Part shown: positions 35,735-63,878 of the stretch, one piece after another
Layout of the letters: each line of letters opens with the position of its first letter
How positions within the stretch are numbered: the stretch's first letter is position 1
DNA from: Novosphingopyxis baekryungensis DSM 16222
Lineage (GTDB): Bacteria; Pseudomonadota; Alphaproteobacteria; Sphingomonadales; Sphingomonadaceae
Assembly (NCBI RefSeq): GCF_000420305.1
Contig: NZ_ATUR01000006.1
Span: 124,001 to 188,000, forward strand
Direction of reading: 5' to 3'
DNA: 64,000 nt
Position numbers and translations under genes: made by a program
The notes under the pieces: generated by a model
The model's database searches: none
What the model saw: the letters and a program-made list of their open reading frames with translations, nothing else
What the model was told of the DNA's origin: nothing

Positions 35735-35741
35735 CGCCTGG

Positions 35742-43577: not shown

Positions 43578-43628
43578 CGCCCGCTACTGACGCATGGACG
43601 AACCGGATGGCTTATCGAGGATGTGCAA

Positions 43629-44428: not shown

Positions 44429-45565
44429 TCAGGCCAGCAGCGCGAGCGGCTGTTCGATCAATCCCCGCAGAACGGACAGCAGCTTCGCTCCATCGGCCCC
44501 ATCGATCGCGCGATGATCGAAGCTGCCGGTGGCACTCATCACCGTTGCAAGTTCGATGGCCTCCCCCACGACATGCGCTCTTTTCTCGCCCGCGCCGACA
44601 GCGAGGATCATGGCCTGTGGCGGATTGATGACCGCATCAAATTGCTTGATGCCGAACATGCCCAGATTGGATAACGACGCCGTACCGCCCTGAAATTCAT
44701 GCGGCTGCAGCTTGCCGTCGCGTGCCTTCGCCGCCAGCATCTTCATCTCAAGACTGATCGCGGACAGGCTCTTTGCGCCAGCGTCGCGGATGATGGGGGT
44801 AATCAGCCCTGAAGGTGCTGCAACGGCAACCGAAATGTCCTGACGCGCATAGGCAATGATGCGTTCTTCCTGAAAGCTGACATTGCAGGACGGCACCTGT
44901 TTCAGCGCCAACGCCAGCGCCTTGATCAGAAGATCATTCACCGACAGCTTCAGATCTTGGCTTTCAAGACTGTCATTCAGCGACGTGCGCAATTCCAGAA
45001 GCGGATCGAGCTGGATATCGAGCGTCAGATAGATGTGCGGAATGGTCCGCTTCGCGTCAGTCAAGCGCCGGGCGATAGTTTTGCGTACATTGCTCAGCGT
45101 CTGGATCTCATGCGGAGGCTGCATGCCATGTCCGGTGGCCGCATGGTTGGTCTGTGCGCCGGTATCGGCCGGCGGAGCCTTCAGGGGTTGCTCCTGTACC
45201 CTTGCCGGATCGTAGTTTTCGATATCCGCCTTGACGATCTTGCCCTTCGGCCCACTGCCGCTAACGGACGCCAGATCGATGCCTCTCTGCTCGGCCATCC
45301 TTCTGGCCAGCGGCGAGGCGGAAATGATATCGCCGCCTTCTTCTTCGCCAGTCTTCGGCGGCGAGCCTTCGGCGTCTGCCGTCGGTGATGAAAAAACGCG
45401 TTGGCCAGCGTCTTCCACGTCCTGCTTCGTTATCTTGCCGCCTGGTCCGGTGCCGGTCAGCGCTTGCAGCGCAATACCGCGCTCAGCCGCCATGCGCCGC
45501 GCCGACGGCGTGGCCGGAGGATCTTGATCAGCCGGCTTGTCCAGGTCGGTAGGAGCGGTCGCCAT
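44429..45565 (-). CDS. 2-oxoacid dehydrogenase acyltransferase (E2) lacking a lipoyl domain
   Basis: The 378-residue protein has two consecutive peripheral-subunit-binding domains, [21 protein letters not shown] (about 20-40) and [20 protein letters not shown] (about 84-103), each with a GKI strand, then a complete catalytic domain (about 150-378) with PHIYLTLDI and the active site [11 protein letters not shown]. No lipoyl domain with a DKA/DKV lysine is present, and the 48 bp upstream to the mmsA stop cannot hold one. An upstream AGGAGG is on the wrong strand and no ribosome site is seen. E1 alpha/beta genes at 61014-62989 are the only partners in the window. It may need a lipoyl domain from elsewhere or act as a non-swinging acyltransferase. 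Confidence 0.85.
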
Positions 45566-47135: not shown

Positions 47136-47912
47136 TCAGCGCTCGACCCATTCGGAGGTCAGGGCGCGAGCCGATAGATATTTCGTCTTGGTCCAACCGC
47201 CATCGACCACAATCGATTGGCCGTTGATCATTTCCGCGCTGGGCGAGCATAGGAAGGCTATGACGTTCGCCACGTCATCCGGCTCGGCCAGGCGCGGATA
47301 GGGCGTGGTTTCAACATTGGCGCGCTGGAACGTCTCATCATCAAAACGATGGCGGACCATGTCTGTCATCGTCACGCCCGGCGCGACGCAATTGCTGCGG
47401 ATGCCGCGCGGACCATATTCCACCGCCATATGCTCGGTGAGCGAGCGCAGCCCGCCCTTGGCCGCAGAATAGGGTCCTCCCCGCCTGCCCCCGATCATTG
47501 CATAGGTGCTGGTCACGTTCACTACCGCGCTGCCCTCGGTCATGTGCGGGATTGCTTCGCGGCAAAGGCGGAACGGCGCGCGCAGCATGACATCGAGGAA
47601 CCGGTCCAGTGTCTCGTCGTCGGTATCGTGCAGCGGAGTCGGGCTGCCCAGACCGGCATTATTGATCAGCGCATCGATCCGCCCGAACCGTTTCAGCGCG
47701 GCATCGATGATGCGTTTCGGCGCGTCGCCTGCCGTGACATCAATCGAGAGCGTTAGCACACGATCGTCCCCGCCAAGTGATACTGCCAGATCGGCCAGCT
47801 TGGCTTCATCACGGCCGATCCCGACCACCGCCACACCAGCTGCGCATAGCGCCTTCGCCGTGGCAAGCCCGATACCGCTACCGGCCCCGGTAATGATCGC
47901 CGTTCTGCTCAT
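47136..47912 (-). CDS. Short-chain dehydrogenase/reductase
   Basis: The 258-residue classical SDR has the TGAGSGIGLATAKAL cofactor loop, LINNAGLG, the serine of VVNVTSTYAMIG and the YSAAKGG Tyr-Lys pair. The start at 47912 places the cofactor strand directly at the N-terminus; a longer frame runs into the oxygenase. Located 10 bp after a Rieske oxygenase gene, it could oxidise the cis-diol or alcohol made by that enzyme, like other dihydrodiol dehydrogenases, though the substrate is unknown. Confidence 0.88.
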   Translation of the reverse strand: MSRTAIITGAGSGIGLATAKALCAAGVAVVGIGRDEAKLADLAVSLGGDDRVLTLSIDVTAGDAPKRIIDAALKRFGRIDALINNAGLGSPTPLHDTDDETLDRFLDVMLRAPFRLCREAIPHMTEGSAVVNVTSTYAMIGGRRGGPYSAAKGGLRSLTEHMAVEYGPRGIRSNCVAPGVTMTDMVRHRFDDETFQRANVETTPYPRLAEPDDVANVIAFLCSPSAEMINGQSIVVDGGWTKTKYLSARALTSEWVER

Positions 47913-47922: not shown

Positions 47923-49326
47923 TCAAAAATCCATCTCCTGGATCTCGCCGTCAAAATTATGCGCAAGCTTATGGGTCGCCACATTCAGTTTTTCGGCATC
48001 TTCGCCGCGCAAATGCGCATCGATCACGCGGTTGTAATTGCTGATCATGCCTTCGATCCCCTTTCCGAGGCGCATGAACTCAAACCCCGCAGCATGCAGA
48101 CCCTTCTGCTGCATCGGAATATTGCCATAGTCCTGGCGCGGAATGGTGGGGAACTGGTCGCTGTCACAGGGCAGTACCGTCGGCTCGGCGACGGCCTTGT
48201 GCTCATCATCCGGTGCAAAGTTGGTCAGCGACCAGATTTCGAACAGGCATTCTTCCGGCCCCAATGGCCGTATCCGATAAGCTGAGGCGCTGCTCATGGT
48301 CGGCAGCAGGAAATAATGCGGGAATATGAACTCGACCGCCTTGACCGGGTTCGTCTGCGCCACGGTGTTGAGATCGGGCAGATCCTCGCCCCGCGCGCGC
48401 AACTGCTCGACAACCTGATGCTGCACGATGCCGTACCACATCATGACCGCCTGCTCGGGGTCCTCCGGCAAATCGACCTCGAGCAGTTGCCCGGCAATCT
48501 CCACCTCCTTCTCGTGGATCATCCCGGCCATGCCGTCATTCAGCAACTTCATATGTTCATATTGCGCGTGAATATTCTCGCGCACCGTCAGGTTGGGATT
48601 GATCGGCACACCGATCCCGCCCGTATCCTGCCCGTACATGCTGTTATACAGTTGCGGCAGCATCTTCTGCAGCTGCGGATGAGTCTTCATGACATGGTAG
48701 CCCTCCATGAAGGCTTCCATCGCGACCTTCCAGTTCGCGGGCAAAGTGGTGGAATACCACCATTCGGCGCGCTGCTTGTCCATGCCGCGCGCTTCCAGAT
48801 CGTCCAATACAGGCCCGATGCTTTCGCGCAAAGACGCAGCGTCGTCGTCAAAATTGATGAAGGCGCAGCCGATGGCGGTTTCAACACGGCACGGCACAAG
48901 GTCGACCTCGGCCTGCGCCAGCTGCTCCTCGCTGAAAAAATGCCGGCCATAGACGAAGGTGTTCTCTCCTTCGATGTTCCAGCGCCATCCATGGAATGGG
49001 CAGATGAAGCCCGCCGACTTGCAATTGCCCTGCCCGCCAGGCTTGGCGATTGGCACACCGCGATGGCGGCAGGCATTGTGGAACGCCTTCACCCCGTTTT
49101 TCGTCTGCACGATGATGACGGAACGATCGAGATTGGAATATTCAACCCAGTCGCCGACATTCTCGATGAGTTCCAGACGGCAGGCCATTTGCCAGACATG
49201 AGGCCACAAACGCTCGTTTTCCGCCGCGAAAAATGTTTCGTCATAATAGCGCTTGGCCGGAATGCGTTCCGGATTATCGACGGGAAATGGAATGTCGAAC
49301 GTCGCGCTCGGATCGGCCTCGGCCAT
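47923..49326 (-). CDS. Rieske non-heme iron oxygenase, alpha subunit
   Basis: The 467-residue protein has the Rieske cluster motif NACRHRGVPIAKPG...FICPFHGWRWNIEG (Cys-His and Cys-His, about residues 84-115) and the catalytic mononuclear iron site NWKVAMEAFMEGYHVMKTHPQ (bridging Asp replaced by Glu or more distant; two His visible). It hydroxylates an aromatic or aliphatic ring with electrons from a separate reductase. No ferredoxin, reductase or beta subunit is in the window, so it is probably a three-component or alpha3-type oxygenase using a shared reductase. A GAGGA site precedes the ATG at 49326. Confidence 0.88.
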   Translation of the reverse strand: MAEADPSATFDIPFPVDNPERIPAKRYYDETFFAAENERLWPHVWQMACRLELIENVGDWVEYSNLDRSVIIVQTKNGVKAFHNACRHRGVPIAKPGGQGNCKSAGFICPFHGWRWNIEGENTFVYGRHFFSEEQLAQAEVDLVPCRVETAIGCAFINFDDDAASLRESIGPVLDDLEARGMDKQRAEWWYSTTLPANWKVAMEAFMEGYHVMKTHPQLQKMLPQLYNSMYGQDTGGIGVPINPNLTVRENIHAQYEHMKLLNDGMAGMIHEKEVEIAGQLLEVDLPEDPEQAVMMWYGIVQHQVVEQLRARGEDLPDLNTVAQTNPVKAVEFIFPHYFLLPTMSSASAYRIRPLGPEECLFEIWSLTNFAPDDEHKAVAEPTVLPCDSDQFPTIPRQDYGNIPMQQKGLHAAGFEFMRLGKGIEGMISNYNRVIDAHLRGEDAEKLNVATHKLAHNFDGEIQEMDF

Positions 49327-49434: not shown

Positions 49435-51018
49435 CTAGCCGCCAAGCTGCGCGCGCAGGACATGCTTCAGCACCTTGCCGGCGTCGTTGCGTGGCAAGGC
49501 ATCGCGCAGCACCACCGCCTCTGGATATTTGAACTTCGCCACGCCTTGAGCAGCAAGATGCTCCGCCAAAGTGCTGACATCCGGTCTTGTTCCGGTGCGG
49601 GGAACCACAACGGCATGGGCACGCTCGCCCGTACGGACGTCGGGCACGCCTACAATCGCGATATCCGCTATATCCGGATGCCCTAGCAAAAGATCCTCAA
49701 TCTCTTTGGGCGCAATATTCTCTCCATTGCGAATGATGATATCCTTGATACGCCCGGTCACGGTCAGGAAGCCGTCCGCGCTCATGCTTCCTTGATCGCC
49801 GGTCCGGTAAAAACCATCGTCGTCGAATGCCGTCCTTTCATCCGCCTGATCGATATAGCCTGCCAGCATCTGCGGTCCGCGCGCGAGAATTTCCTGCCCC
49901 GGCCCCAATCTGATCTCGGCATATCCTGCCTTGCCGTCGGTGAGCGCAGCCTCTGGCATGCTGCTGCGGCTTAACGCACCGACGGCGGTCACCGGCACTT
50001 CGGTGGATCCATAGACCCGGCTCACGCGCGCACGATCGAACCAGTTTGCAGCGTCCTCGATCAGGCGCGGCGGTACCGAAGCGCCGCCGCAAATGAAAAC
50101 CTTCAAGGCGGGCAGATGCGCGCCTTCAGCCTTGGCGGCAGCGAGCAGATGCTCCAGGAACGGTGTTGCTCCGGCCATATGCGTCACATGCTCTTCCGCC
50201 ATGATGGTAAGCGCCGCAGCAGGATCCCAACGCTCCATCAGAATAGCGCTGGATCCCAGGAGCAGCGGCGCTTCGAATACATAAATGGAGCCACCAATAT
50301 GGCTGATCGGTGAGGGCACGAGAAACCGGTCGCCCGGCTCGACCAGCCAGTGCTCGGCAATCTGGCGCAACAACGCATGCAGCGAATTGTGGGTGTGCAG
50401 CACACCCTTGGGCCGGCCTGTGGTTCCCGACGTATACATCACCATGCGCACGCTGTTTGGATCGAGCATGAGAGGCTCGCGCGGGACGCTCCGGTCCACA
50501 ATCTCGGCAAAGCCATGCTCTCCCTGCCCGCGCACGACCACGATCTCGGGGGGATCATTGTGCCCGGCGGCCACCCGCCGCACCATGTCCGCATAGGCGA
50601 AGCCGTTGAAGCTTTCCGGCACGAATACGACCCTGCTGGCGCAGTCTTTTAGGATGAAACTTAGATCATGATCGCGCAGGCTTGGCAGAATGGGATTGGC
50701 AACCAGTCCGCAATAGGTTGCCGCGGCATAGATGATGGCGGCTTCATGCCAGTTTGGCATCATGAACGAGATGACCTGGCCTCGCTCGGTGCGCGCCCCA
50801 AGCCATCCGGCCAGGCGGCTGGCAGAAAGGTGGCAGTCGCTGGCCGTGAGCCTGACATCGCCATCGATCAACAGAACCCTGTCCGGGGTCTGCCCCGCGA
50901 TCCGCGGCAGCACCTGCCCCAATGTTTCGTCCGACCACCATCCCCGCTGCCGTGCTGCGGTAGCCCGCGCCTCGTCCCAACGAATGCTCCAGCCATCGAT
51001 TGCGCGCCGCGTGATCAT
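49435..51018 (-). CDS. Acyl-CoA ligase (AMP-forming), ANL superfamily
   Basis: The 527-residue protein has the P-loop A3 motif MYTSGTTGRPKGVLHTH, YGSTEVPVTAVG (A5), the GYIDQADERTAFDDDGFYRTGDQGSMSADGFLTVTGR (A7-A8) and C-terminal PRNDAGKVLK with the catalytic Lys. It activates a carboxylic acid with ATP and joins it to CoA, the likely entry reaction for the pathway encoded around it; the N-terminal WWSDETLGQVLPRIAGQTPDRV resembles cyclohexanecarboxylate/medium-chain ligases. It is the first gene of the minus-strand set before the Rieske gene. The ATG at 51018 is preferred; a longer frame has no ribosome site. Confidence 0.9.
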   Translation of the reverse strand: MITRRAIDGWSIRWDEARATAARQRGWWSDETLGQVLPRIAGQTPDRVLLIDGDVRLTASDCHLSASRLAGWLGARTERGQVISFMMPNWHEAAIIYAAATYCGLVANPILPSLRDHDLSFILKDCASRVVFVPESFNGFAYADMVRRVAAGHNDPPEIVVVRGQGEHGFAEIVDRSVPREPLMLDPNSVRMVMYTSGTTGRPKGVLHTHNSLHALLRQIAEHWLVEPGDRFLVPSPISHIGGSIYVFEAPLLLGSSAILMERWDPAAALTIMAEEHVTHMAGATPFLEHLLAAAKAEGAHLPALKVFICGGASVPPRLIEDAANWFDRARVSRVYGSTEVPVTAVGALSRSSMPEAALTDGKAGYAEIRLGPGQEILARGPQMLAGYIDQADERTAFDDDGFYRTGDQGSMSADGFLTVTGRIKDIIIRNGENIAPKEIEDLLLGHPDIADIAIVGVPDVRTGERAHAVVVPRTGTRPDVSTLAEHLAAQGVAKFKYPEAVVLRDALPRNDAGKVLKHVLRAQLGG

Positions 51019-52015: not shown

Positions 52016-52861
52016 ATGACCGTCGGAACCAAGACCCAAGTCAAGCATGAAGCGATCAAGCCCATGATTGGCAGCCGCATCCTGAATTCGAAAGACGAGC
52101 TGCTGTCAGGCGATCTCGGCGATGAAATTCGCGAACTACTGGAGCAGAATGGCGTGCTGGTCTTTCCCGAAATCAACTTTACCGATGCGGAGCAGATCGC
52201 ATTCACCAAGACGCTGGGAACCTATGCGCCGGAACGTCAGGGCGATGACGAAGAAGTCACCAAGATCAGCATAGACCCCAAGGTTTCCGGCCCGACCGCG
52301 GAATATCTGAGAGGGTCGCTTTATTGGCACATCGACGGCACGATGCAGGAAGTGCCCATCCTTGCCTCGATCCTCGCATGCAAGAAACCCTCCCCCAAAG
52401 GCACGGGAAACACCGGCTTCTCCAACACCTATGCCGCCTATGAAGGGCTGCCGCAGGAGGAAAAGGACCGTATTGCCGACCTGAAAGTACGGCACGGCAT
52501 CTGGGCCTCGCTCTTTTTCTATCGCCCCGAACCGCCGCTGGACATGCTGAAAGCCATGCAGGCAATCGGCGACAAGGAATTGCCGCTGGTATGGTCCCAC
52601 GAGTCCGGCCGCAAGTCGCTCGTTATCGGCAACACGGCGCATACCGTGGTCGGGATGGACGTGATGGAAAGCCGTCTGCTGCTCAACGAGCTGCGCGAAT
52701 GGGCCACCAAGGAAGACTATACCTATACGCATGAATGGACTGCGGGCGATCTGGTGATCTGGGACAATACCGGGACCATGCACCGCGCCGAACATTATGA
52801 TGTGGAGAGCGGACGCCTGATGGTGCGCACGAAGCTGCAGGGCGAAGAACCCTTCGCCTGA
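52016..52861 (+). CDS. TauD/TfdA family Fe(II)/2-oxoglutarate dioxygenase
   Basis: The 281-residue protein has the facial triad: LYWHIDGTMQEVP (His and Asp, about residues 103-105) and the distal His in NTGTMHRAEHYD (about 260), with the 2-oxoglutarate-binding Arg in GRLMVRTKL. Family members hydroxylate small acids (taurine, 2,4-D, alkylsulfates); the target here is unknown. It is not a sulfonate gene cluster. It sits between two SDR genes and probably shares their transcript. Confidence 0.85.
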   Translation: MTVGTKTQVKHEAIKPMIGSRILNSKDELLSGDLGDEIRELLEQNGVLVFPEINFTDAEQIAFTKTLGTYAPERQGDDEEVTKISIDPKVSGPTAEYLRGSLYWHIDGTMQEVPILASILACKKPSPKGTGNTGFSNTYAAYEGLPQEEKDRIADLKVRHGIWASLFFYRPEPPLDMLKAMQAIGDKELPLVWSHESGRKSLVIGNTAHTVVGMDVMESRLLLNELREWATKEDYTYTHEWTAGDLVIWDNTGTMHRAEHYDVESGRLMVRTKLQGEEPFA

Positions 52862-52887: not shown

Positions 52888-53793
52888 ATGAATGAACTTC
52901 GGTTTGACGGACGCGTGGCTGTTATCAGCGGCGCGGGCCGGGGGCTGGGTCGTGCCTATGCGCTGCTTCTGGCGTCCCGCGGCGCCAAGGTGGTGGTAAA
53001 CGACAATGGCAGCGCTATCGCCGGGGCCGCGGAAGATCACGGCCCGGCGGAATCGGTGGTCGAAGAGATCAGGCGACAGGGTGGCACCGCGATGGTCTCC
53101 ACCGCGTCGGTCGCATCCCCAGATGAAGCGGCCCAAATCGTGCGCGATGCCATCGACGCGTTCGGGCGGATCGACATCCTCGTTCACAATGCCGGCAATG
53201 TCCGCCGCGCACCGATCCACGAAATGTCGGACGAAGCCTATCATTCGGTTGTGGATGTCCATCTCAGCGGTGGCTTCTATCTCGCCCGCGCCGCCATCCC
53301 GCATATGCGGGAGCAGCGATATGGCCGCTTCGTCCTCACCTCTTCGATCGGCGGATTTTACGGCAACGCGAATGTCGTGAACTATTGCGTGGCCAAAGCC
53401 GGCCTTATGGGTCTCAGCCGCGCCATCGCTGTCGAGAATGCAGAATTCGGCATTCAGAGCAATTTGATCTTGCCCGGCGCCGTTACGCGGCTGTCCGAGG
53501 GCATCGATACCAGTCAGTTTCCACCCATGGAACCAGACAAGGTCGCCCCCATGGTCGGCTGGCTGGCGCATGAAAGCTGTGACCGTTCGGGGGAAATTTT
53601 CGCCGCCGTCGCCGGCCGCATGGCCAAGTTCGAAATCGCCGAAACACAGGGTGTGTTCGCGCAGGATTGGACGATCGAAACCATTGCAGCCCGCCGGGAT
53701 GAAATCACTGCAACCGAAGACGAGAAACGCTTCGGGCTCAATGGCTTTCAGGAACATCTCGGCTTCAGTTTCGCGATGGCGAAAGCCAACTGA
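52888..53793 (+). CDS. SDR, hydroxyacyl-CoA dehydrogenase-like
   Basis: A 301-residue SDR of the type found in peroxisomal multifunctional enzyme 2 and bacterial (3R)-hydroxyacyl-CoA dehydrogenases: VAVISGAGRGLGRAYALLLASRGAKVVVNDNGS, ESVVEEIRRQGGTAM, LVHNAGNVRRAPIHEMSD, and YCVAKAGLMGLSRAIAVEN (Tyr-Lys). The extended length and ASPDEAAQIVRDAIDAFGRID are consistent. It probably oxidises a 3-hydroxyacyl-CoA in the surrounding acyl-CoA pathway. It lies 26 bp after the dioxygenase gene. Confidence 0.87.
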   Translation: MNELRFDGRVAVISGAGRGLGRAYALLLASRGAKVVVNDNGSAIAGAAEDHGPAESVVEEIRRQGGTAMVSTASVASPDEAAQIVRDAIDAFGRIDILVHNAGNVRRAPIHEMSDEAYHSVVDVHLSGGFYLARAAIPHMREQRYGRFVLTSSIGGFYGNANVVNYCVAKAGLMGLSRAIAVENAEFGIQSNLILPGAVTRLSEGIDTSQFPPMEPDKVAPMVGWLAHESCDRSGEIFAAVAGRMAKFEIAETQGVFAQDWTIETIAARRDEITATEDEKRFGLNGFQEHLGFSFAMAKAN

Positions 53794-53878: not shown

Positions 53879-55123
53879 ATGCCTGCGAAGAGCGCCAGAT
53901 CAGAATGGAAATCCCACTGGACGCTGCCGGTTGCGGCTGGCCTAGGCTATGCCACCAGCGTCATCCATATTTACGGGCTGGGCGTCTATATCGAACCGAT
54001 CAGCGAGAGCTTTGGCTGGAGCCGTTCGGTAACCACCTTCGGACTAACGATTGCTACGCTGATCCAGGCCCTGTTCGGTATCCCGATCGGCATGCTGGTC
54101 GACCGGATCGGGCCGCGTCCGCTTGGCGTTATTGGCGTGGCTTTGACCTGCGGCGCATTTGCCCTGTTGGGCACGGCATCCGGCAGCGAATGGCAGTGGT
54201 ATGGCCTGTGGGCGGTTATGGCTCTGGCCACTTTACCGGTGCAGGCCACCATCTGGACAGCAGCCGTGGCCAGCCGTTTCCAGGCATCGCGCGGGCTTGC
54301 CTTTGCCATTACGCTATGTGGCGCCTCGGTCGCCGCTGCACTTTTTCCATGGCTCGGCGCACGACTGATCGGTGCGTTTGGATGGCAAACGGCGATGGCT
54401 TATCAGGCACTGATCTGGCTCGCTATTGCCCTGCCCGTCATCATCCTTTTTTTCCGCGGCGCAAACGACGTGCCCAAAAGCCAAAGGGCGCAGATCGCCG
54501 CCGCGCCCGCCCCGGGCCAGCCTGAAGGTCTGAGCTTTGGCGAGGGCCTGAAATCATCGATTTACGCGCGGTTGATGCTGGCCAGCCTTCTTTTCACCTT
54601 TACCATTCTCGCGCTCGTCGTACATTTCGTGCCGATACTCACCGGCTTTGGCCTAAACACTGCCAGCGCTGCCGGGCTGGCCGGCCTTATCGGCCTCTTC
54701 TCGATCGCTGGCAGGCTCGGTACCGGTTTTCTGCTCGACCGCTTCAACGCTGCGCGCGTGGGCGCAGCCGTTTTTCTTCTGCCCATCGCAGCCAGTCTGA
54801 TGCTGATTCTACTTGGTCCGGACGGTGCCATCCCGGCAGCCATCATGGTCGGCCTCACGCTCGGGGCCGAGATCGATGTGATTGTCTACCTCGCCACACG
54901 CCATTTCGGTTTGAAAGCTTTTGGTGCGCTCTATGGCGGACTCCTGGTCGCCCTGTCGGTCGGCACGGCTACCGGTCCGCTGGCTGCATCTGCCATATTC
55001 GATCGCTATGGCGCGTATGAGCCGTTCCTCTGGGCGACGGTGGGCATGATGGTGGTCAGTAGCCTGTTCTTGCTCAGCTTGCCTCGGCCGCAATTCGGCA
55101 ATCTGAAAAGCTCAGAGACCTAG
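53879..55123 (+). CDS. MFS transporter, monocarboxylate-porter-like
   Basis: The 414-residue protein shows 12 hydrophobic segments with the MFS motif A region GMLVDRIGPRPLGV between helices 2 and 3 and an equivalent LDRFNAARVGAAVF in the second half. The N-terminal YGLGVYIEPISESFGWSRSVTTFGLTIATL is typical of the MCT-like/oxalate-formate group, which import mono- or dicarboxylic acids. It is the likely uptake carrier for the substrate of the neighbouring catabolic genes. It ends in a 12-bp overlap with the convergent aldehyde dehydrogenase. Confidence 0.88.
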   Translation: MPAKSARSEWKSHWTLPVAAGLGYATSVIHIYGLGVYIEPISESFGWSRSVTTFGLTIATLIQALFGIPIGMLVDRIGPRPLGVIGVALTCGAFALLGTASGSEWQWYGLWAVMALATLPVQATIWTAAVASRFQASRGLAFAITLCGASVAAALFPWLGARLIGAFGWQTAMAYQALIWLAIALPVIILFFRGANDVPKSQRAQIAAAPAPGQPEGLSFGEGLKSSIYARLMLASLLFTFTILALVVHFVPILTGFGLNTASAAGLAGLIGLFSIAGRLGTGFLLDRFNAARVGAAVFLLPIAASLMLILLGPDGAIPAAIMVGLTLGAEIDVIVYLATRHFGLKAFGALYGGLLVALSVGTATGPLAASAIFDRYGAYEPFLWATVGMMVVSSLFLLSLPRPQFGNLKSSET

Positions 55124-56554
55124 GCAGACATATTTGGTTTCCATATAGTCGCTCAATCCGTGGCGCGAGCCTTCGCGGCCGAGGCCTGACTGCTTGATGC
55201 CGCCGAAGGGAGCGACCTCTGTCGAAATGATCCCCGTATTGACACCGACCATGCCGGCCTCAAGGGCTTCGGCGACACGCCATATTCGGGCAATATCGCG
55301 CGCGTAGAAATAGCTCGCCAAGCCGAATTCGCTGTCATTTGCCCATTCAATCGCCTGCGCCTCGTCATGGAATCGTATGATGGCGGCCAGCGGACCGAAG
55401 GTTTCATCGCGGGCAATCAGCATGTCCTGCGTCGCATCGGCCAACACGGTCGGCTCGAACCAGGTGCCGCCCAGTTCAGACCGCTTGCCGCCGGCGCAAA
55501 TGCGTGCCCCCTGCCGGGTCGCGTCGGCCAGATGCTCCTCTACTTTCAGAACAGCCTTTTCGTCGATCATGGGGCCAATCTGCGTGCCGTCCTCCATCCC
55601 GCTGCCGAGCTTCAGCGCCCGTACGCGCGTCGCCAGTTTTTCCACGAACTGGTCGTATACCGCGTCCTGAACGTAGAAGCGGTTGGTGCAGACGCAGGTC
55701 TGACCGGCGTTGCGGAACTTGGATGCGATAGCGCCCCCGACGGCCGCATCGATATCGGCATCATCGAACACCAGAAATGGCGCATTGCCGCCAAGCTCGA
55801 GCGATAATTTCTTGATCGTCTGCGCACTCTGACGCATCAGCGTTCGCCCGACATCGGTGGACCCGGTGAAACTGATTTTGCGAACCAGGGGGCTGGCCGT
55901 TAGTGCCTCCCCTATTTCCGCCGCGCTGCCGGTCACGATGTTGAGCACACCGCGCGGCACACCGGCTTCCAGCGCCAGAGCCCCGATCGCCAATGCGGAA
56001 AGCGGCGTCTGCGATGCAGGCTTCAGCACCACCGTGCAGCCGGCGGCAAGCGCCGGTCCAATCTTTCTGCCAATCATGGCGGACGGGAAATTCCACGGCG
56101 TAATGGCGCCCACGACCCCTATTGGTTGCGTCAGGGTGAGAATGCGCTTGTCAACACCGTGCGAGGGGATCACCTCGCCATAGGCGCGTTTGCCCTCCTC
56201 AGCGAACCACTCGATGAAGCTGGCACAATAAGCGATTTCACCCACCGCTTCAGCCAGCGGCTTGCCCTGTTCGCGGGTCAGCAATTCGCCCAGCAGCTGC
56301 TTGTGCTCCATCATCAGATCGAACAGTTTGCGCAGGATGCCCGATCGCTCACTGGCCGTGCGCGCACGCCAGTCCGGTAAGGCCGCCTGTGCCGCCGCGA
56401 TGGCGCGCAATGTCTCCGCGCCGCCCATTTTGGGGACGGTGGCCAATTCGTCTCCATTTGCCGGGTCGACCACGGCAAATCGCGTGCCGTCGTCGGCATC
56501 GCACCACTGACCGTCGATCAGGCACTGCGTGCGAAGTAAGTCCTGCTGTGTCAT
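55112..56554 (-). CDS. NAD(P)-dependent succinate-semialdehyde dehydrogenase type
   Basis: The 480-residue ALDH has WNFPSAMIGRKIGPALAAGCTVVLKPASQTP, FTGSTDVGRTLM, the general base Glu in LELGGNAPFLVFDDAD, and the catalytic Cys in FRNAGQTCVCTNRF, with the C-terminal GIKQSGLGREGSRHGLSDYMETKYV typical of GabD. It oxidises succinate semialdehyde or a similar aldehyde-acid to the acid. In this cluster it may act on a ring-cleavage or side-chain aldehyde. The ATG at 56554 is chosen; upstream in-frame residues overlap the acyl-CoA dehydrogenase gene. Confidence 0.93.
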   Translation of the reverse strand: MTQQDLLRTQCLIDGQWCDADDGTRFAVVDPANGDELATVPKMGGAETLRAIAAAQAALPDWRARTASERSGILRKLFDLMMEHKQLLGELLTREQGKPLAEAVGEIAYCASFIEWFAEEGKRAYGEVIPSHGVDKRILTLTQPIGVVGAITPWNFPSAMIGRKIGPALAAGCTVVLKPASQTPLSALAIGALALEAGVPRGVLNIVTGSAAEIGEALTASPLVRKISFTGSTDVGRTLMRQSAQTIKKLSLELGGNAPFLVFDDADIDAAVGGAIASKFRNAGQTCVCTNRFYVQDAVYDQFVEKLATRVRALKLGSGMEDGTQIGPMIDEKAVLKVEEHLADATRQGARICAGGKRSELGGTWFEPTVLADATQDMLIARDETFGPLAAIIRFHDEAQAIEWANDSEFGLASYFYARDIARIWRVAEALEAGMVGVNTGIISTEVAPFGGIKQSGLGREGSRHGLSDYMETKYVCLGL

Positions 56555-56571: not shown

Positions 56572-57495
56572 TCAAGAGTTTGATAGGCCCCAAAGGGCGT
56601 CGGCGGCTGCCGCGGCGTTGGAGGCCCGCCCGCCCAGCTCGCCGATCAACGCCTTCAGGCGATAGGTCCACATGTGCAGCGGATGCTCCAGGGTCATGCC
56701 CATCGCGCCCAGAAACTGGTGAAAATCATACACACAGGCTCGCGCGGACTCCTGCGCGTGCCACGCCGCCAAGGCGGCATCGCCGGGGTCCAGCGTTCCG
56801 GCGGCCTTCATAGCCAGCCAGTATACGCCGTTGGCACGCACTTGCGCTTCGGCCAGACGATGGCGCACCGCCTGAAAGGTGGCCAGCTGGCGGCCAAATT
56901 GTTCCCGCTCGCTGACATGCGCCACAGTGCTGGCCAGCGCTGCCGCCAGAAGGCCTGCCGCCTCTGCCGCCAGCGCCGCGCGCCAGCGGATGAACATGAT
57001 AGACGGCGCTATGTCGTGGATCTGCCGCTCATCGGGCAGCGCGACAAGGCTCGTCATCGGATAACCGTACAACGCCCCGGTTTCGGCGCGCAGATGATCT
57101 TGGGTTGCGACGAAGCTCTCGACCTCCTGCTCTCCCACGATCACAACCGTGGTGCCGGGCGCGAGAAAGCGAACCAGTTGCGGCGTGCGGCGCGACGCAA
57201 TTAGACAGATCGGCCCAGGCACCTCGCCCAGCAATGGCCCGATCATCGCGCTGAATGCGGCCTCGGTGGCGAAGGGAAGGCGGGCAATCCGCTCGATCAC
57301 TACAGCGGCGGTCACCGTGCCTAGATCGGGATCCCTTGCGACATCGAGAAAGCCGTTTAGGCGCAACTGGGCATCCAGATCGTCGCTGGTCGCAGCCAAT
57401 GGGGCATCGTGCAACGGCGCCGCCTCAAACGGGCGCACCAGGGTATCAACTGCGCTCAGAATGGCGCGCTGGTCATCTGTTAGGGCCAGATCCAT
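56572..57495 (-). CDS. Acyl-CoA dehydrogenase, small subunit type (pair A)
   Basis: A 307-residue acyl-CoA dehydrogenase homologue shorter than the usual 380-400 residues, lacking much of the middle beta domain. It keeps SEREQFGRQLATFQAVRHRLAEAQV and the C-terminal GAMGMTLEHPLHMWTYRLKALI, where Glu (near residue 270) corresponds to the catalytic base of MCAD. It starts in a TGATG overlap with the large subunit gene, so the two probably form a heteromeric enzyme with one flavin per pair, as known for steroid-degrading ChsE1-ChsE2 systems. Confidence 0.85.
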   Translation of the reverse strand: MDLALTDDQRAILSAVDTLVRPFEAAPLHDAPLAATSDDLDAQLRLNGFLDVARDPDLGTVTAAVVIERIARLPFATEAAFSAMIGPLLGEVPGPICLIASRRTPQLVRFLAPGTTVVIVGEQEVESFVATQDHLRAETGALYGYPMTSLVALPDERQIHDIAPSIMFIRWRAALAAEAAGLLAAALASTVAHVSEREQFGRQLATFQAVRHRLAEAQVRANGVYWLAMKAAGTLDPGDAALAAWHAQESARACVYDFHQFLGAMGMTLEHPLHMWTYRLKALIGELGGRASNAAAAADALWGLSNS

Positions 57496-58640
57496 CAGCG
57501 CGGCTCCCGTGGCAGTTCCAGCACATCGCTGGCAATGATGTTCAGCTGAATTTCGGCAGCGCCGGCAGCGATCCCCGCCACAATTCCACGCTGGTGATGC
57601 ATCTTGAGATATGGATGATCGTCCGCGAGAGCTTCCGGCAGATGCTCCACGATAAACTCCGCAACACGCCGTTCGCACATCACGGTCGCAAAGCGCGCGG
57701 ATGAACTTTCCTGTCCAATCACCTGCCCCTCCGCGCGGCGGGTGACGATGGCATAGCTGGCCATGCGGGCGGCCTCGGTCAGCGCAGCGGCTTCCGCCGC
57801 TTCGATCCGCACCGCCTCCCGCGTAAAATCGCCGCGGTGCTGCAGGATCGATACCGCCCGGTCCAGCGCGGCCCGCGCCAGCGAATAGCGCGGAATGCCG
57901 AGCCGTTCGTTGCGCAGCGAATAGGCAATGATCTCCCACGCCTGCCCCTCCTCACCAAGCCGGGCGGTGGCCGGTACACGCATGTCATCGAAAAACACCT
58001 CATGGATATCGCCCTCGCCGATCAGCGAGGGAATTTGCCGTACAGTGATACCGGGCGTGTCCATCGGCACCAGCAAGATGGTGATCCCGCGCTTGCGATC
58101 GTCGCTCGTTCGGCACAGCAGAAAGCATGTATCGGCCAGCCCGGCATAGCTGGTCCATATTTTCTGGCCATTGACGACATATTCATTGCCGTCCAATTCC
58201 GCGCGCGTCCGCAGAGAAGCCAGATCGGATCCGGAACCGGGCTCTGAAAATCCCTGGCACCATAGGGCTTTGCCCTCGGAAATCGGCGGAAGGTAGCGCT
58301 GCTGTTGCTGCTCGGTGCCGTAAGTGATCAGCGTGGGACCGATCCAGTTGACGTTCATATATTGGCCGCCGCGCGGTTCGCCCGCGATCCACATCTCTTC
58401 GGCCAGGATCGTCTGGAACCATGGGCCCAGGCCCTGCCCCCCAATGTCTTTGTCCCAATGCGGGGTAAGCAGATCTTCCCTGGCCAGCGCGGCGCAAAAG
58501 CTTTCCGCATAGCGGGTGAGCGAAGGCGATGCGGGCCCGTGTTGGGAGAAGCGCTCCCAATCCTCTGGCAGCGTATCGGCGAGAAACGCCTTAAGCCGCT
58601 CGCGAAACGCTTCCTCATCTTTGGTCCAGGTAAATTGCAT
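57495..58640 (-). CDS. Acyl-CoA dehydrogenase, large subunit type (pair A)
   Basis: The 381-residue protein has the flavin-binding regions WCQGFSEPGSGSDLASLRTRAEL and VNGQKIWTSYAGLADTCF, LGEEGQAWEIIAYSLRNERLGI, and a C-terminus EIQLNIIASDVLELPREP that lacks a Glu in the TEY position, as in the FadE subunits of heteromeric acyl-CoA dehydrogenases. It is the first gene of the minus-strand pair and lies back to back with pair B across 113 bp. A substrate with a short side chain attached to a ring is suspected from the family, not shown. Confidence 0.88.
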   Translation of the reverse strand: MQFTWTKDEEAFRERLKAFLADTLPEDWERFSQHGPASPSLTRYAESFCAALAREDLLTPHWDKDIGGQGLGPWFQTILAEEMWIAGEPRGGQYMNVNWIGPTLITYGTEQQQQRYLPPISEGKALWCQGFSEPGSGSDLASLRTRAELDGNEYVVNGQKIWTSYAGLADTCFLLCRTSDDRKRGITILLVPMDTPGITVRQIPSLIGEGDIHEVFFDDMRVPATARLGEEGQAWEIIAYSLRNERLGIPRYSLARAALDRAVSILQHRGDFTREAVRIEAAEAAALTEAARMASYAIVTRRAEGQVIGQESSSARFATVMCERRVAEFIVEHLPEALADDHPYLKMHHQRGIVAGIAAGAAEIQLNIIASDVLELPREPR

Positions 58641-58753
58641 GGCTCACTCCTACGCAAGCGAGGCTGGCGCGAACAGGGCGCGGCGCATCGCCGCCCCGAT
58701 ATCGCCGGAATGCCGCTTGTGAAAACACGCCACCAATCGGACTACCCAGGGCC

Positions 58754-59938
58754 ATGAGCACCGATCTTCAAGACTTCCGCGCCGAGATCCGCCAGTGGCT
58801 GGACCGGGAAGCCCCCACCGATTGGCGCAGCGCCGCGACACATGATGCGTTTGTGGAAAGCCAGCGCGCCTGGTTTCGCAAGCTGGTTGCCGCGGGATAT
58901 GCGGTGCCGCATTGGCCTGAACGGTGGCCGGGCGGTGGGCGCACGCTGCTGGAGCAGAAAATCATCTATGAGGAGCTTTCGCGCGCCGATGCACCGCGGC
59001 TGCTCCTGCCGTTCGTCTCTACCTATCATGCCTATGCCACAATTGGTGAATGCGGCACGCAGGAACAGCAGGAGCGCTATCTGCACGCTATTCTGGACGG
59101 GGAAACCTGGTGCCAGGGCTTCTCCGAACCCAATGCAGGATCGGACCTTGCCGCCATCCGCACCAAGGCCGTGCGCGATGGAGATCACTATGTCGTCACG
59201 GGCCAAAAAATATGGTCGACCATGGCGCAATATGCCGACATGTGCCTGCTGCTGGTCCGCACCTCGACCGAGGGGGCCAAGCAGGCGGGAATGACCTATC
59301 TGCTGATGGATATGGACAGCCCCGGCGTCACCGTTCGTCCGATCCATCAGATCCAAGGTGACGAGGAATTTGCTGAAATCTTCCTGGACGAGGTCAGGGT
59401 GCCGGTCGATCAGCGTGTAGGCGCAGAAGGCGCCGGGTGGGCGGTGGCGCAGGCCACGCTTGCCTCCGAACGGGGCCTGACCTTGATGGAGCTGTCCTAT
59501 CGCATGCGCGGTGCCCTCACGCGGATTGCACGGCAGCTGACGGAGGTTGGGCGCGCCGACGATCGCGGTGCCTTGCGTGATCTTGGCGCGCTGAAGATCA
59601 GGATCGATGCCGTCTGCGCGCTGGCCGACCAGTTCTTGCGCAAGCGGATGAACGATGAGGAGCAGATCGGAGACGCCTCGATCGTCAAGCTGGCCTATGC
59701 CCGCTGTCTGCGCGCCTATGCCGATCTCGGGGTGCGCTTTGCTGGCCTCGATGGGCAATTTCACGCGCCGATCACTTTTGGCGATCTAAATTCCGGCAAC
59801 TGGATGGCCGATTTCATGAACAGCTATGCCTGGACCATCGCGGGCGGCAGCGACGAAGTACAACGCAACATCATTGCCGAGCGCATGCTGGGCATGCCGC
59901 GCGAACCGAAGTCCTGGACGGCCGAGGTGGCGGCATGA
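58754..59938 (+). CDS. Acyl-CoA dehydrogenase, large subunit type (pair B)
   Basis: A 394-residue homologue with WCQGFSEPNAGSDLAAIRTKAVRDGD, VTGQKIWSTMAQYADMCLLLVRT, VGAEGAGWAVAQATLASERGL and a C-terminus AGGSDEVQRNIIAERMLGMPREP. The segment before it (FMNSYAWTIAGG) shows no TEY-like Glu, so the catalytic base should come from the partner, whose ATG overlaps this stop by 4 bp. Its layout repeats pair A on the opposite strand. Confidence 0.9.
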   Translation: MSTDLQDFRAEIRQWLDREAPTDWRSAATHDAFVESQRAWFRKLVAAGYAVPHWPERWPGGGRTLLEQKIIYEELSRADAPRLLLPFVSTYHAYATIGECGTQEQQERYLHAILDGETWCQGFSEPNAGSDLAAIRTKAVRDGDHYVVTGQKIWSTMAQYADMCLLLVRTSTEGAKQAGMTYLLMDMDSPGVTVRPIHQIQGDEEFAEIFLDEVRVPVDQRVGAEGAGWAVAQATLASERGLTLMELSYRMRGALTRIARQLTEVGRADDRGALRDLGALKIRIDAVCALADQFLRKRMNDEEQIGDASIVKLAYARCLRAYADLGVRFAGLDGQFHAPITFGDLNSGNWMADFMNSYAWTIAGGSDEVQRNIIAERMLGMPREPKSWTAEVAA

Positions 59939-60918
59939 GCGAGATGCGGCAAACGCTTGAAGACAGCGCGCGCAAGGTTTTTCCCAACTGGGAAGCGGCA
60001 CGGGATGCGAGCGATGCGTGGGCCCAAGTGGCGCAGCTTGGCTGGTTCATGGTCGGTGTGCCAGAAAAGATAGGTGGGCTGGGCCTGGGCGATGAAGGTC
60101 TGGCCATCATCTTTGCAGAACTGGGCCGCGCGCTGGTGCCAGGGCCCGTATTGACGCAGTTTCTAGTCATCGAGGCACTGGTGGCTGGCGCGCCGTTCGA
60201 GGAACGCGACGGCTTGCTGGAGCGCGCCATGAGCGGCGAGATCATGACAGCGTCGCTCGCCATCGGCGGGCGTTCCAGTGAGGCGGTGATGGATGCCGAC
60301 AAGGCCTCTCACATTCTGCTCCGCCGCGAGGATGTAGTCGCGCTAATCTCGCAAGATGGTGCGCAAGTGAAAGCCCGCGAAACATGGGACGTATCGCGCC
60401 GCCTGTTTGACGTCGCGGTCGTCGACGACGCGCAGCGTTACGTTGTGGCGCGTGGCCAAAAGGCGGCCCAGCTGAACGATCGCCTCGATACGCTTCTGTG
60501 CATCGCCCTTGCCGGTGATGCGCTTGGCGGCGCACGGGCAGCCCTGGGCTTGACGCTCGACCATCTCAAGGGCCGCAGCCAGTTCGACCGGCCGCTGGCG
60601 ATGTTTCAAGCATTGAAGCATCGAGTGGCCGATTTGAAGATGATGATCGACACCGCGGACGCGTTTTACGCCGATCGCACGTCGCAATCGCTCACGGCGT
60701 TAGAAGCCGGTGAGTTGAAAAACTTCTGCTGCGCGGTCTATCGCGATACTGTGGAAGACGCGATCCAACTGCATGGCGGCGTCGGTCTGACCACCGAATA
60801 TGCCATCCACCGCTTCTTCAAGCGCGCATTCCTGAACTGCGCACTGGGGGGCGATGCCGATTATTGGAATGAGCGCGCCGGACGTGCCGCGATGGCGGAA
60901 AGTCAGGCCAAAGCCTGA
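59935..60918 (+). CDS. Acyl-CoA dehydrogenase, small subunit type (pair B)
   Basis: A 327-residue partner with an N-terminal helical half (VPEKIGGLGLGDEGLAIIFAELGRALVP) and a C-terminal QLHGGVGLTTEYAIHRFFKRA, where the Glu of TTEY (near residue 288) matches the MCAD catalytic Glu. The coupling to the large subunit through ATGA supports a two-subunit enzyme. A strong hairpin 49 bp after the stop separates it from the convergent E1 beta gene. Confidence 0.9.
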   Translation: MSEMRQTLEDSARKVFPNWEAARDASDAWAQVAQLGWFMVGVPEKIGGLGLGDEGLAIIFAELGRALVPGPVLTQFLVIEALVAGAPFEERDGLLERAMSGEIMTASLAIGGRSSEAVMDADKASHILLRREDVVALISQDGAQVKARETWDVSRRLFDVAVVDDAQRYVVARGQKAAQLNDRLDTLLCIALAGDALGGARAALGLTLDHLKGRSQFDRPLAMFQALKHRVADLKMMIDTADAFYADRTSQSLTALEAGELKNFCCAVYRDTVEDAIQLHGGVGLTTEYAIHRFFKRAFLNCALGGDADYWNERAGRAAMAESQAKA

Positions 60919-61013: not shown

Positions 61014-61997
61014 TCAGCTCATCAGGCCTTTCACGGCCGCAATCATGTCGGCAGGCTGCACGATGTAGGCATCCTCCAGCGCCTTGGCGAATGGGACCGG
61101 ACATTTCGGGGCGCCGAGCCGCCGCACCGGCGCTTTCAATTTGCCGAAGAGCTCCTCATTGATAGTCGCCGCGATTTCTGCACCCGGCCCAAAGTCGCGC
61201 ACCGCTTCATGCGCAATCAATACCCGGCCGGTCTTTTGCGCCGATGCCAGTACCGTTTCCCGATCCCAGGGAGAAATCGTACGCAGATCGATCAGCTCAA
61301 CCGAAACGCCCGCCTCGGCAAATCCTTCCAGCGCCATCTGCGCCCGAATGCACTGGCTCGACCAGGTGACGAGCGTGACATCGGTGCCTTCCTGCACGAT
61401 CCGTGCCTTGCCCAATGGTATCGGCCCCTGATCGTCGTCCACCTCTGACGGGATGAACATGGTGCCGGCGCTTTCGATGAAGATGCAGGGATCGGGGTCC
61501 TGGATACAGGACAACATCAATCCCTTATAGTCGGCCGGGCTGGATGGCGCGACGACCTTGATGCCGGCAGCATGCGCAAACCATCCTTCAAGATGATCGG
61601 CATGTTGCCCAGCCGTCTGCCAACCGGCGCCGGTCAGCGTGCGGATAACGATGGGCACGCTGGTTTGACCGCCGGACATGAAGCGCAATTTCGCTGCATG
61701 GTTGAAGATCATGTCCATCGCGACGGTGGTGAAATTCATCAGCATGATTTCGGCCACCGGTTTGTAACCGGCCATGGCCGCGCCGATGGCGGCGCCAACG
61801 ATCGCCTGCTCCGAAATTGGCGTGGACCGGACGCGGTCGCCGAATTTCGTCGAAAGCCCCTGCGCCGCCCCGGTGATCCCGCCGCCCTCCGGATCGGCAA
61901 TATCCTCGCCCAGAACCAGGACCTTTTCGTCCTCGGCCATCGCCTGGTGCAAAGCTGCGTTGACGCCCTGGATCGCGTGCATTTTCGTCGTGCTCAT
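61014..61997 (-). CDS. 2-oxoacid dehydrogenase E1 beta subunit
   Basis: The 327-residue protein has the transketolase pyrimidine-domain features: VLGEDIADPEGGGITGAAQGLSTKFG, TPISEQAIVGAAIGAAMAGYKPVAEIMLMNF, and GGQTSVPIVIRTLTGAGWQTAGQHADHLEGWFAHAAGIKVVAPSSPAD. It belongs to the pyruvate/acetoin dehydrogenase group. No N-terminal lipoyl domain is present, unlike many alphaproteobacterial PdhB proteins. Its ATG overlaps the end of the alpha gene by 4 bp. Together they decarboxylate a 2-oxo acid and pass the acyl group to an E2. Confidence 0.92.
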   Translation of the reverse strand: MSTTKMHAIQGVNAALHQAMAEDEKVLVLGEDIADPEGGGITGAAQGLSTKFGDRVRSTPISEQAIVGAAIGAAMAGYKPVAEIMLMNFTTVAMDMIFNHAAKLRFMSGGQTSVPIVIRTLTGAGWQTAGQHADHLEGWFAHAAGIKVVAPSSPADYKGLMLSCIQDPDPCIFIESAGTMFIPSEVDDDQGPIPLGKARIVQEGTDVTLVTWSSQCIRAQMALEGFAEAGVSVELIDLRTISPWDRETVLASAQKTGRVLIAHEAVRDFGPGAEIAATINEELFGKLKAPVRRLGAPKCPVPFAKALEDAYIVQPADMIAAVKGLMS

Positions 61998-62989
61998 GCC
62001 GACATCTCCTGTTCGAATACGTCGCGGCGCAGTTCATCAGCGGACGGCACTTCGCTGGCCATCCCGAATTCACGGGCTGCAGCGACTTCCTGCTCGATCT
62101 GCTGTGTCATCTCCTCAAGCTGGGCTTCCGTGGCATGACCATCGTCCAGCAACTTCTGGCGAAAAGCCGGCAGAGGATCGTTTTCCTTGGCCTTTGCCAG
62201 CTCACCCTCCGGCATATATTTCATGTCATCGCCGAGCACATGGCCCATGAAACGGAATGTGTTGCATTCCAGCAAGGTCGGGCCTTCGCCTGCGCGCGCG
62301 CGGTCGATGGCGGTGGCGACATGGGCATACATCTCAAAGGGATCATTGCCGTCGATCGTAAATCCCGGCATGCCATAGCCTACGGCGCGCTTTGAAATCT
62401 TGTCGACCGCCGTGCCCTTTTCGAAGCTGGTATGCTCGGCATAGCGGTTGTTGGGGCAGACGAAAATCACCGGCAATTTCCACAGGCCGGCAAGATTCAT
62501 CGCCTCGTGAAACGCCCCGATATTGGACGCGCCGTCACCGAAATAGGCGATAACGACCCGCTTCGATCCGTCCAGCTGCGCCGCCCATGCGAGCCCGTTG
62601 GCGATCGGCATGGAAGAGCCGACGATGCCGGTTGTCACCATCACCCCGGTTTCGGGATGCGTGAGATGCATAGGGCCGCCCTTGCCCTTGCAGGTGCCGT
62701 CGACACGACCTGCGATCTCCGCCCAAAGCGGTTTCAGCGGCATGTCCTTGGCCACCATGTCCTGAATGCCGCGATAAATGGTACAGATCTGATCTTCGTC
62801 GGTCAAAAAATGCGAAACGGTGGCAGGGATGACTTCTTGCCCACGCGCCGAATAATAAGGCATTTGCAACCGGCCTTTTCGGATCGTCGACAGTATAGCA
62901 TCGTCGTTGCGTTCAATGCGGACCATCCGGCGATAGATATCAACCAGTGCTTTCGTATCGGGCTGCGGCGCGTTACTCGCTTCGCTCAT
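61994..62989 (-). CDS. 2-oxoacid dehydrogenase E1 alpha subunit
   Basis: The 331-residue protein has the thiamine-diphosphate motif GDGASNIGAFHEAMNLAGLWKLPVIFVCPNN, the substrate-side IYRGIQDMVAKDMPLKPLWAEI and GGPMHLTHPETGVMVTTGIVGSSMPIANGLAWA. This resembles acetoin or pyruvate dehydrogenases more than branched-chain ones. GAGGA precedes the ATG. It is divergent from the enoyl-CoA hydratase gene over 103 bp that includes a palindrome. The only E2 in the window is the lipoyl-free gene at 44429. Confidence 0.92.
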   Translation of the reverse strand: MSEASNAPQPDTKALVDIYRRMVRIERNDDAILSTIRKGRLQMPYYSARGQEVIPATVSHFLTDEDQICTIYRGIQDMVAKDMPLKPLWAEIAGRVDGTCKGKGGPMHLTHPETGVMVTTGIVGSSMPIANGLAWAAQLDGSKRVVIAYFGDGASNIGAFHEAMNLAGLWKLPVIFVCPNNRYAEHTSFEKGTAVDKISKRAVGYGMPGFTIDGNDPFEMYAHVATAIDRARAGEGPTLLECNTFRFMGHVLGDDMKYMPEGELAKAKENDPLPAFRQKLLDDGHATEAQLEEMTQQIEQEVAAAREFGMASEVPSADELRRDVFEQEMSA

Positions 62990-63092: not shown

Positions 63093-63878
63093 ATGACCAT
63101 GGCACTTCCTGAATATTCCACGCTGCTCCTGGCAAGACATGGCAGGCGGCTTACCATTACGCTCAACCGGGGAGACGCGCTCAACGCCTTCGACAAGGTG
63201 ATGCATGACGAGCTTCCCACCGCGCTGGAATTTGCACGCGACGATGCACATTCGGATGTGATCGTTTTGACCGGAGCCGGCCGCGCCTTTTCGGCCGGTG
63301 GCGATTTCGAACATATCGCGGCCAATGCTACGCAGCCGGAGCGATTCGACCATGAAATGGCGATGGCCAAGCGGATTGTGCTGGCCCTGCTCGATACCGA
63401 CAAGCCCGTCATCTGCCGCATGAATGGCCATGCGGTAGGGTTGGGCGCGACCATCGCATTGCTGTGCGATATCATTTACGCCGATGAGAAGGCAAAAATC
63501 GGCGATCCGCACGTCCTGATCGGACTGGCGGCCGGCGATGGGGGCGCGCTGATCTGGCCGCAGCGCATCGGCCTGACCCGTGCGAAGGAATTTCTGTTTA
63601 CCGGAGACCTGATCCGCGCACCCGAGGCGGTGTCGATCGGGCTCATCAACAAGGCTTTGCCCTCCGATGCTCTGGATCAGGCCGTCGATCACTTGGCGCA
63701 AAGGCTTTTAGGCCTGCCCCAAATGGCCTTGCGAGCGACCAAAAGGCTGACCAATCTGGAACTGAAGCGACTGGCGGACAGCCTTCTCGACAAAGGCATG
63801 GGATGGGAAAGCGAAACGGTACGAAGCCCTGAACATCGCAGCGCTATTGCCGCGATGCGCAAGGCACAGGGCGGTTAA
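63093..63878 (+). CDS. Enoyl-CoA hydratase/isomerase family protein
   Basis: The 261-residue crotonase-fold protein has ITLNRGDALNAFD, LTGAGRAFSAGGDFEH (first oxyanion region), MNGHAVGLGATIALLCDIIYADEKAKIGDPHVLIGLAAGDGGALIWPQRIG (second), and IGLINKALPSDALD. The Glu positions of true hydratases (two active-site Glu) are not both evident: Asp/His replace them at GDPHVLIG, so it may act as an isomerase or hydrolase rather than hydratase. It hydrates or isomerises an enoyl-CoA, the step after the acyl-CoA dehydrogenases. Confidence 0.88.
   Translation: MTMALPEYSTLLLARHGRRLTITLNRGDALNAFDKVMHDELPTALEFARDDAHSDVIVLTGAGRAFSAGGDFEHIAANATQPERFDHEMAMAKRIVLALLDTDKPVICRMNGHAVGLGATIALLCDIIYADEKAKIGDPHVLIGLAAGDGGALIWPQRIGLTRAKEFLFTGDLIRAPEAVSIGLINKALPSDALDQAVDHLAQRLLGLPQMALRATKRLTNLELKRLADSLLDKGMGWESETVRSPEHRSAIAAMRKAQGG

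Follow-up and report, generated by a model that had tools for sequence, protein, structure and literature searches.

Among the steroid-degrading acyl-CoA dehydrogenases (ACADs), ChsE4-ChsE5 (the title carried by PDB entry 4x28) and Tcur3481-Tcur3483 (6wy8 and 6wy9) combine a large with a small subunit, the flavin site and a glutamate on helix G being located in the large subunit and the motifs for the ADP side of flavin adenine dinucleotide (FAD) in the small one. For ChsE4-ChsE5 and ChsE1-ChsE2 the alpha subunit has been described to hold isoalloxazine, Glu and substrate, and the beta subunit to contact the ADP-ribose (PMC11153573). The base lies outside the position typical of medium-chain ACAD (MCAD) in long-chain ACAD (LCAD) and in isovaleryl-CoA dehydrogenase (IVD), and is found on helix G in LCAD (PMC11153573). 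In fused ACADs of the CasC/FadE34 type the same two halves are contained in one chain, and the N-terminal domain of CasC, a relative of FadE34, was reported to be without a catalytic base (PMC8399759). The pair architecture is shared by IpdE1-IpdE2 (FadE30-FadE33), which acts in C/D-ring degradation. A further two-protein complex according to the PDB, Fic32-Fic33 from Streptomyces ficellus (8hk0), belongs to an antibiotic-producing pathway, which suggests that large-plus-small ACAD pairs are not confined to steroids.

Here we describe two such pairs, A/A' and B/B', encoded at positions 56572-60918 of a stretch of 64,000 nucleotides (the window; G000:C6:124001-188000) from Novosphingopyxis baekryungensis DSM 16222, whose genome assembly has 3.06 Mb in 10 contigs and is 99.99% complete. 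For comparison, 348 genomes of the same family, fetched loci, and proteobacterial and actinobacterial examples were used. With a probability of about 0.62, A and B would be two alpha2beta2-type ACADs catalysing different reactions within a single accessory catabolic pathway.

Two divergent pairs of large and small ACAD subunits

A sequence-only reading of the window had proposed two divergent large-plus-small ACAD pairs, and the four genes are present as it described them. B' (56572-57495, minus strand) codes for a small (beta-type) subunit of 307 amino acids and B (57495-58640, minus strand) for a large (alpha-type) subunit of 381 amino acids, whereas on the other side of a divergent intergenic region (58641-58753) A (58754-59938, plus strand) codes for a large subunit of 394 amino acids and A' (59935-60918, plus strand) for a small subunit of 327 amino acids. 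The divergent start codons of A and B are 113 bp apart, and a search for a sigma-70 consensus in these 113 bp gave no match. Stop and start codons overlap inside each pair, as had likewise been noticed, with one base in common between B and B' (TGATG on the minus strand) and four between A and A' (ATGA). As this overlap recurs in 53 large-subunit genes of fetched relatives (four bases in 32 of them and one base in 21), the coupling is conserved. A and B themselves are distant paralogues with about 33-38% identity over the aligned part. A Rieske ferredoxin gene sits between the pairs in genome G022, in loci L039 and L041 and on the plasmid of Sphingobium sp. RAC03; in the window's genome the same gene is found at L001:5831-6145(+), about 9 kb beyond A'.

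Sequence comparison with the PDB gave 4x28, 6wy8 and 6wy9 as the leading matches for B and A, and 6wy8_A was the best match for B' and A'. When AlphaFold models of B' and A' (predicted local distance difference test scores of 87 and 88.5, respectively) were compared with known folds by Foldseek, Tcur3481-Tcur3483 and ChsE4-ChsE5 were the best or near-best structural matches: for B' the small subunits of 6wy8 and 6wy9 came first and 4x28_C fourth, and for A' chains C and A of 6wy8 and chain B of 6wy9 came first and 4x28_C ninth. Fic32-Fic33 was among the better matches of B' by fold and of A by sequence. Using the division between subunits described in PMC11153573 and PMC8399759 as a rule, the flavin-ring motifs and the predicted catalytic Glu were found only in the large subunits and the ADP-side motifs in the small ones, which retain R-x-x-F-x-x-x-(L/I)-x-x-F-Q and Q-x-x-G-(G/A); in B' the FAD-ADP motif is present as REQFGRQLATFQAVRH and QFLGAMG. 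Each pair consists of two adjacent, unlike subunits of ACAD fold, the second of them shortened, and relatives have the same pairing.

A tree of 86 large subunits was obtained by a quick IQ-TREE run with the Shimodaira-Hasegawa-like approximate likelihood-ratio test (SH-aLRT) as its sole support measure. As references it contained Tcur3483 and the M. aurum orthologues of FadE26, FadE29, FadE30, FadE31 and FadE34, the M. aurum gene names having been assigned here from gene order and identity to solved proteins. The large subunits fell with heteromeric enzymes in one group of 81 of the 86 rows (SH-aLRT 92) and did not group with homotetrameric fatty acid dehydrogenases, of which the tree included few rows. 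Inside this group B belongs to a clade of 29 rows (SH-aLRT 99) and A to a clade of 12 rows (SH-aLRT 99), which also holds the A subunits of actinobacterial tandem blocks. Solved relatives, motifs, folds and tree together support the assignment of both pairs as predicted alpha2beta2-type ACADs, and each large and small subunit would form one composite active site.

The short subunits do carry a Glu in LEH and TEY motifs near residues 270 and 288, as the sequence-only reading had stated (Glu270 of B' and Glu288 of A'), but these residues are not at the position of the catalytic base. The window proteins were aligned with the M. aurum orthologues of FadE26 to FadE34 and with homotetrameric enzymes of the same genome, one of which, bearing YEGT, marked the J-K loop position. 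The usual MCAD-type base position lies 17 residues past LEH/TEY and is occupied by Leu or Gly in both small subunits (Leu287 in B', Leu304/Gly305 in A'), by Ala in B and by Gly in A; none of the four has the J-K loop Glu that homotetrameric MCAD-type or short-chain ACAD-type enzymes carry in a full-length subunit. In agreement with the alignment, LEH and TEY are located just ahead of helix J in the AlphaFold models of B' and A', and the J-K loop reads LGG. In this alignment B' and A' have a Glu at neither known catalytic position. The TEY-position Glu, which B' and A' keep and which is missing from Tcur3481 (VDY) and the ChsE5 orthologue (MDH), occurs also in the N-terminal domain of FadE34 and, given that the corresponding domain of CasC was reported to be without a base, it is no sign of catalysis. 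At the helix-G position a Glu was found in all 66 of the A- and B-type large subunits compared (66/66). The predicted base is therefore the helix-G Glu of each large subunit, Glu245 in B and Glu239 in A, as in LCAD, IVD and ChsE4, and this corrects the residue to be mutated from the small-subunit TEY/LEH to the large-subunit helix-G Glu.

A and B as one co-inherited module

A B orthologue with at least 74% identity is present in 11 of the 348 family genomes. A thiamine pyrophosphate (TPP)-dependent enzyme (at least 77% identity) was detected in all 11 carriers of B and in 2 other genomes (Fisher p 4e-19), and a Baeyer-Villiger monooxygenase (BVMO; at least 55%) in all 11 and in 1 other genome (Fisher p 6e-20). 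At these thresholds none of the three occurs in genome G001 of the same genus, and the module is therefore accessory. A close A (at least 66% identity) accompanies B in 10 of the 11 carriers (Fisher p 2e-18), and when the co-occurrence of B and the TPP enzyme was collapsed to genera, p was 3e-9. Genome G022 possesses a block of about 100 kb that is syntenic with the window's island, Terrarubrum has two divergent pairs likewise, and in RAC03 the pairs reside on a plasmid; in genomes G201 and G233 the module genes are far apart and still co-occur. In Sphingobium sp. DEHP117 the gene for the A large subunit is broken by an apparent transposase gene (L040:13101-15117, minus strand).

In Mycobacterium, Nocardia and Rhodococcus the pairs follow one another as B-B'-[hydratase]-A-A', and genes for a TPP enzyme, a Rieske oxygenase and a BVMO are frequent neighbours. 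M. aurum has B, B', A and A' in tandem at 3189177-3193430, and its large subunits B and A matched their window counterparts with 291 and 380 bits, respectively, compared with 249 bits for FadE30 and 142 bits for FadE29 of the same organism against window A. Rhodococcus sp. USK13 carries B, B', an enoyl-CoA hydratase, A and A' on a plasmid. Both A and B are present in 17 of the actinobacterial loci, and within the fetched flanks of these a relative of the short-chain dehydrogenase encoded at 52888-53793 of the window was present in 14, a Rieske oxygenase in 12, a BVMO in 12 and a TPP enzyme in 10. This gene content shows that A and B are inherited together as a single module, which a minority of the sphingomonads share with mycobacteria and their relatives. 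The module's gene set was not found described in the literature searched, and module and pathway are apparently undescribed there.

The two substrates proposed by the sequence-only reading, either successive or alternative, are best accommodated as two steps, probably successive, of one pathway, a choice supported by the co-inheritance of A and B and by the actinobacterial tandem with the hydratase gene between the pairs in some loci. That A and B are alternative enzymes for one step, differing in chain length or stereoisomer, would be in keeping with two distant paralogues lying side by side; we consider this unlikely, as in actinobacteria a hydratase gene lies between A and B within the same tandem block and as the two are kept or lost together in 10 of 11 genomes, which suggests, without proving it, sequential rather than redundant roles. 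Several observations weigh against the reading of A and B as two alpha2beta2-type ACADs of one pathway. The B pair is found without A, for example in Variovorax, and in Pseudomaricurvus (L045) it stands beside a fused ACAD, so that B alone may serve other pathways. Conversely, the 38 kb shown for M. branderi contain a TPP enzyme-aldehyde dehydrogenase-Rieske-BVMO group but neither an A nor a B pair. The p values for co-occurrence, except the count by genera, ignore relatedness, and the identity thresholds were chosen after the results had been seen. Finally, the AlphaFold models represent single chains, and a heterotetramer is beyond their reach.

Relation to steroid degradation and to other substrates

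The sequence-only reading had expected the degradation of a cyclic or steroid-like acid. A cyclic substrate is plausible in view of the linked Rieske oxygenase, BVMO and KstD-like enzyme, but the steroid part of this proposal was not supported. In the 86-row tree ChsE4, ChsE2, Tcur3483, IpdE1, FadE31 and FadE34 belong to neither the A nor the B clade, and neither clade holds a characterized steroid enzyme (Scd proteins were not among the references). Using M. aurum proteins as queries, HsaA, HsaC and IpdA, which represent the 9,10-seco and C/D-ring steps, had no match in the window's genome, in G022, in G063 (Sphingomonas sp. OK281) or on the RAC03 plasmid, whereas the positive controls G012 and M. 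aurum were matched. HsaC was not found in 10 of the 11 genomes with a close B, G197 alone possessing it, and a metagenome-assembled genome labelled Chol11 gave weak matches to HsaC and HsaA and none to IpdA. As Sphingomonadaceae use a divergent bile-salt route, the canonical pathway is more securely excluded by these tests than an unknown steroid route would be. The pathway of A and B is distinct from the canonical 9,10-seco route of steroid degradation.

That the pairs nevertheless act on steroid side chains or rings, or on bile acids, as dehydrogenases of the ChsE, IpdE1-IpdE2 or Scd type appears improbable to us. The nearest solved relatives, 4x28 and 6wy8, are steroid enzymes, the island codes for a KstD-like flavoprotein with 527 bits to the model for 3-ketosteroid-delta-1-dehydrogenase (cut-off 789), and a ChsH2-type OB-fold protein adjoins a thiolase-like protein. 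However, both large subunits are placed outside the ChsE2/ChsE4/Tcur3483, IpdE1/FadE31 and FadE34 clades (Scd4AB of Chol11 was not in this comparison), being separated from the Tcur3481-Tcur3483 and ChsE4-ChsE5 enzymes by long branches, and the steroid-core genes named above are unmatched; for the window's genome the steroid reading was rejected on these two grounds. Although IpdE2 is the best NCBIfam model for A', the IpdE2 scores of 114.5 (A') and 46.6 bits fall short of the cut-off (450), A and IpdE1 are in different clades, and IpdA is absent. From CasC/FadE34 the pairs differ in that A and B are separate polypeptides in clades other than that of FadE34. A fused ACAD of 734 amino acids is encoded in the same island about 27 kb beyond A' (L002:3510-5714, plus strand); the downstream island also contains the thiolase-like protein (L001/L002 junction, window-scale 83370-84530) and the stand-alone ChsH2-type OB-fold protein (L002:530-856, minus strand), a set that recalls the Ltp2-ChsH2 aldolase.

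It is very improbable that enzymes of general fatty-acid or dicarboxylate beta-oxidation, such as the pimeloyl-CoA dehydrogenase PimC/PimD, lie by chance in a catabolic island. Among the NCBIfam models pimC_large matches both large subunits best, but its 204 and 215 bits are below the cut-off of 623.85, any B-type match (1e-110) is limited to 20 of the 348 family genomes, and the pairs track the BVMO and the TPP enzyme. As the PimD scores (41 and 62 bits against 652.7) were also below the equivalog cut-off, PimC/PimD was rejected. Other substrates were considered and not adopted. Abscisic acid, degraded by Rhodococcus P1Y and Novosphingobium P6W, stays an idea, the 2021 paper being without genes. 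A saponin aglycone was hinted at by uronate genes and a heparanase-like GH79 protein; the uronate block is outside the G022 synteny, and the enzymes of Sphingobium RC1 in the saponin paper are of steroid type. For resin acids, suggested by the name Novosphingobium resinovorum, no link was found. The uronate catabolism block itself (34105-44381) comprises UxaC, a mannitol-type dehydrogenase, PfkB, a TRAP transporter and GntR, with the heparanase-like GH79 protein at 34105-35562, and more GH39-like genes are present in L004.

Neighbouring genes and a proposed pathway

Directly downstream of B' lies a gene for a succinate-semialdehyde dehydrogenase family protein (55112-56554, minus strand; TIGR01780). 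Farther along the minus strand there are genes for a CoA-acylating enzyme of the methylmalonate-semialdehyde dehydrogenase family (45614-47116; TIGR01722, over cut-off), a short-chain dehydrogenase (47136-47912), which in several loci of proteobacteria is close to the B pair, a Rieske oxygenase alpha subunit (47923-49326), near the pairs in G022, L039, L042, L044 and RAC03, and an AMP-forming acyl-CoA ligase (49435-51009), of which L046, L047 and L049 have counterparts of about 56% identity in the neighbourhood of the B pair. On the plus strand a TauD/TfdA-type Fe/2-oxoglutarate dioxygenase (52016-52861) precedes the short-chain dehydrogenase (52888-53793) that recurs in actinobacterial loci. 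Beyond A' are 2-oxoacid dehydrogenase E1 beta (61014-61997) and E1 alpha (61994-62989), both on the minus strand and syntenic with the pairs in G022, L039, L041 and L044, and an enoyl-CoA hydratase/isomerase (63093-63878, plus strand), a relative of which separates B' from A in several loci of actinobacteria. The 2-oxoacid dehydrogenase complex seems to be split: besides E1 (61014-62989, minus strand), there is an E2 (44429-45565, minus strand) consisting of a core and two E3-binding domains without a lipoyl domain, the latter being on a separate protein of 76 amino acids (L001:1007-1237, minus strand, 1.2 kb beyond the window end). In genome G351 a similar lipoyl-less E2 adjoins the A gene.

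The linked BVMO is PtlE-like (612 bits, under its cut-off of 1100), and together with the Rieske oxygenases, a cytochrome P450 with ferredoxin and the KstD-like enzyme it suggests a ring substrate. In the proposed pathway, oxygenases and BVMO would open an alicyclic or terpenoid-like skeleton that is bulky and probably branched, and the resulting acid would be converted to its CoA ester. B and A, arranged as tandem in actinobacteria and as divergent pairs in sphingomonads, would desaturate successive acyl-CoA intermediates during shortening, with the hydratase acting between them. Judging from motifs and solved relatives, flavin ring, acyl-CoA and base (Glu239 of A, Glu245 of B) would be held by the large subunit, with the ADP-binding half of the FAD site provided by the small one. 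Of the module partners, which comprise the TPP-dependent enzyme, BVMO, Rieske oxygenase, short-chain dehydrogenases and aldehyde dehydrogenase, the TPP enzyme and the aldehyde dehydrogenase, and also the TauD-type dioxygenase, would fit a putative alpha-oxidation-like reaction that bypasses a branched carbon. As to the substrate, a terpenoid-like alicyclic acid is our best guess and not a result. Only tentatively, at somewhat less than even odds, do we extend this to an undescribed ring-degradation pathway reaching from Actinomycetota to Sphingomonadales, in which Baeyer-Villiger cleavage, TPP-dependent C-C cleavage of an alpha-oxidation-like kind and two dedicated heteromeric ACADs would be directed against a branched terpenoid skeleton.

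Heteromeric ACADs are often taken as a sign of steroid degradation, and here two of them are found in a host without the steroid core; as they form a co-inherited module outside that core, steroid catabolism should not be called from the architecture of these enzymes alone. A, B, the hydratase, the TPP enzyme, the BVMO and the Rieske oxygenase make up a testable gene set for a pathway that would be common to mycobacteria, nocardiae, rhodococci and sphingomonads.

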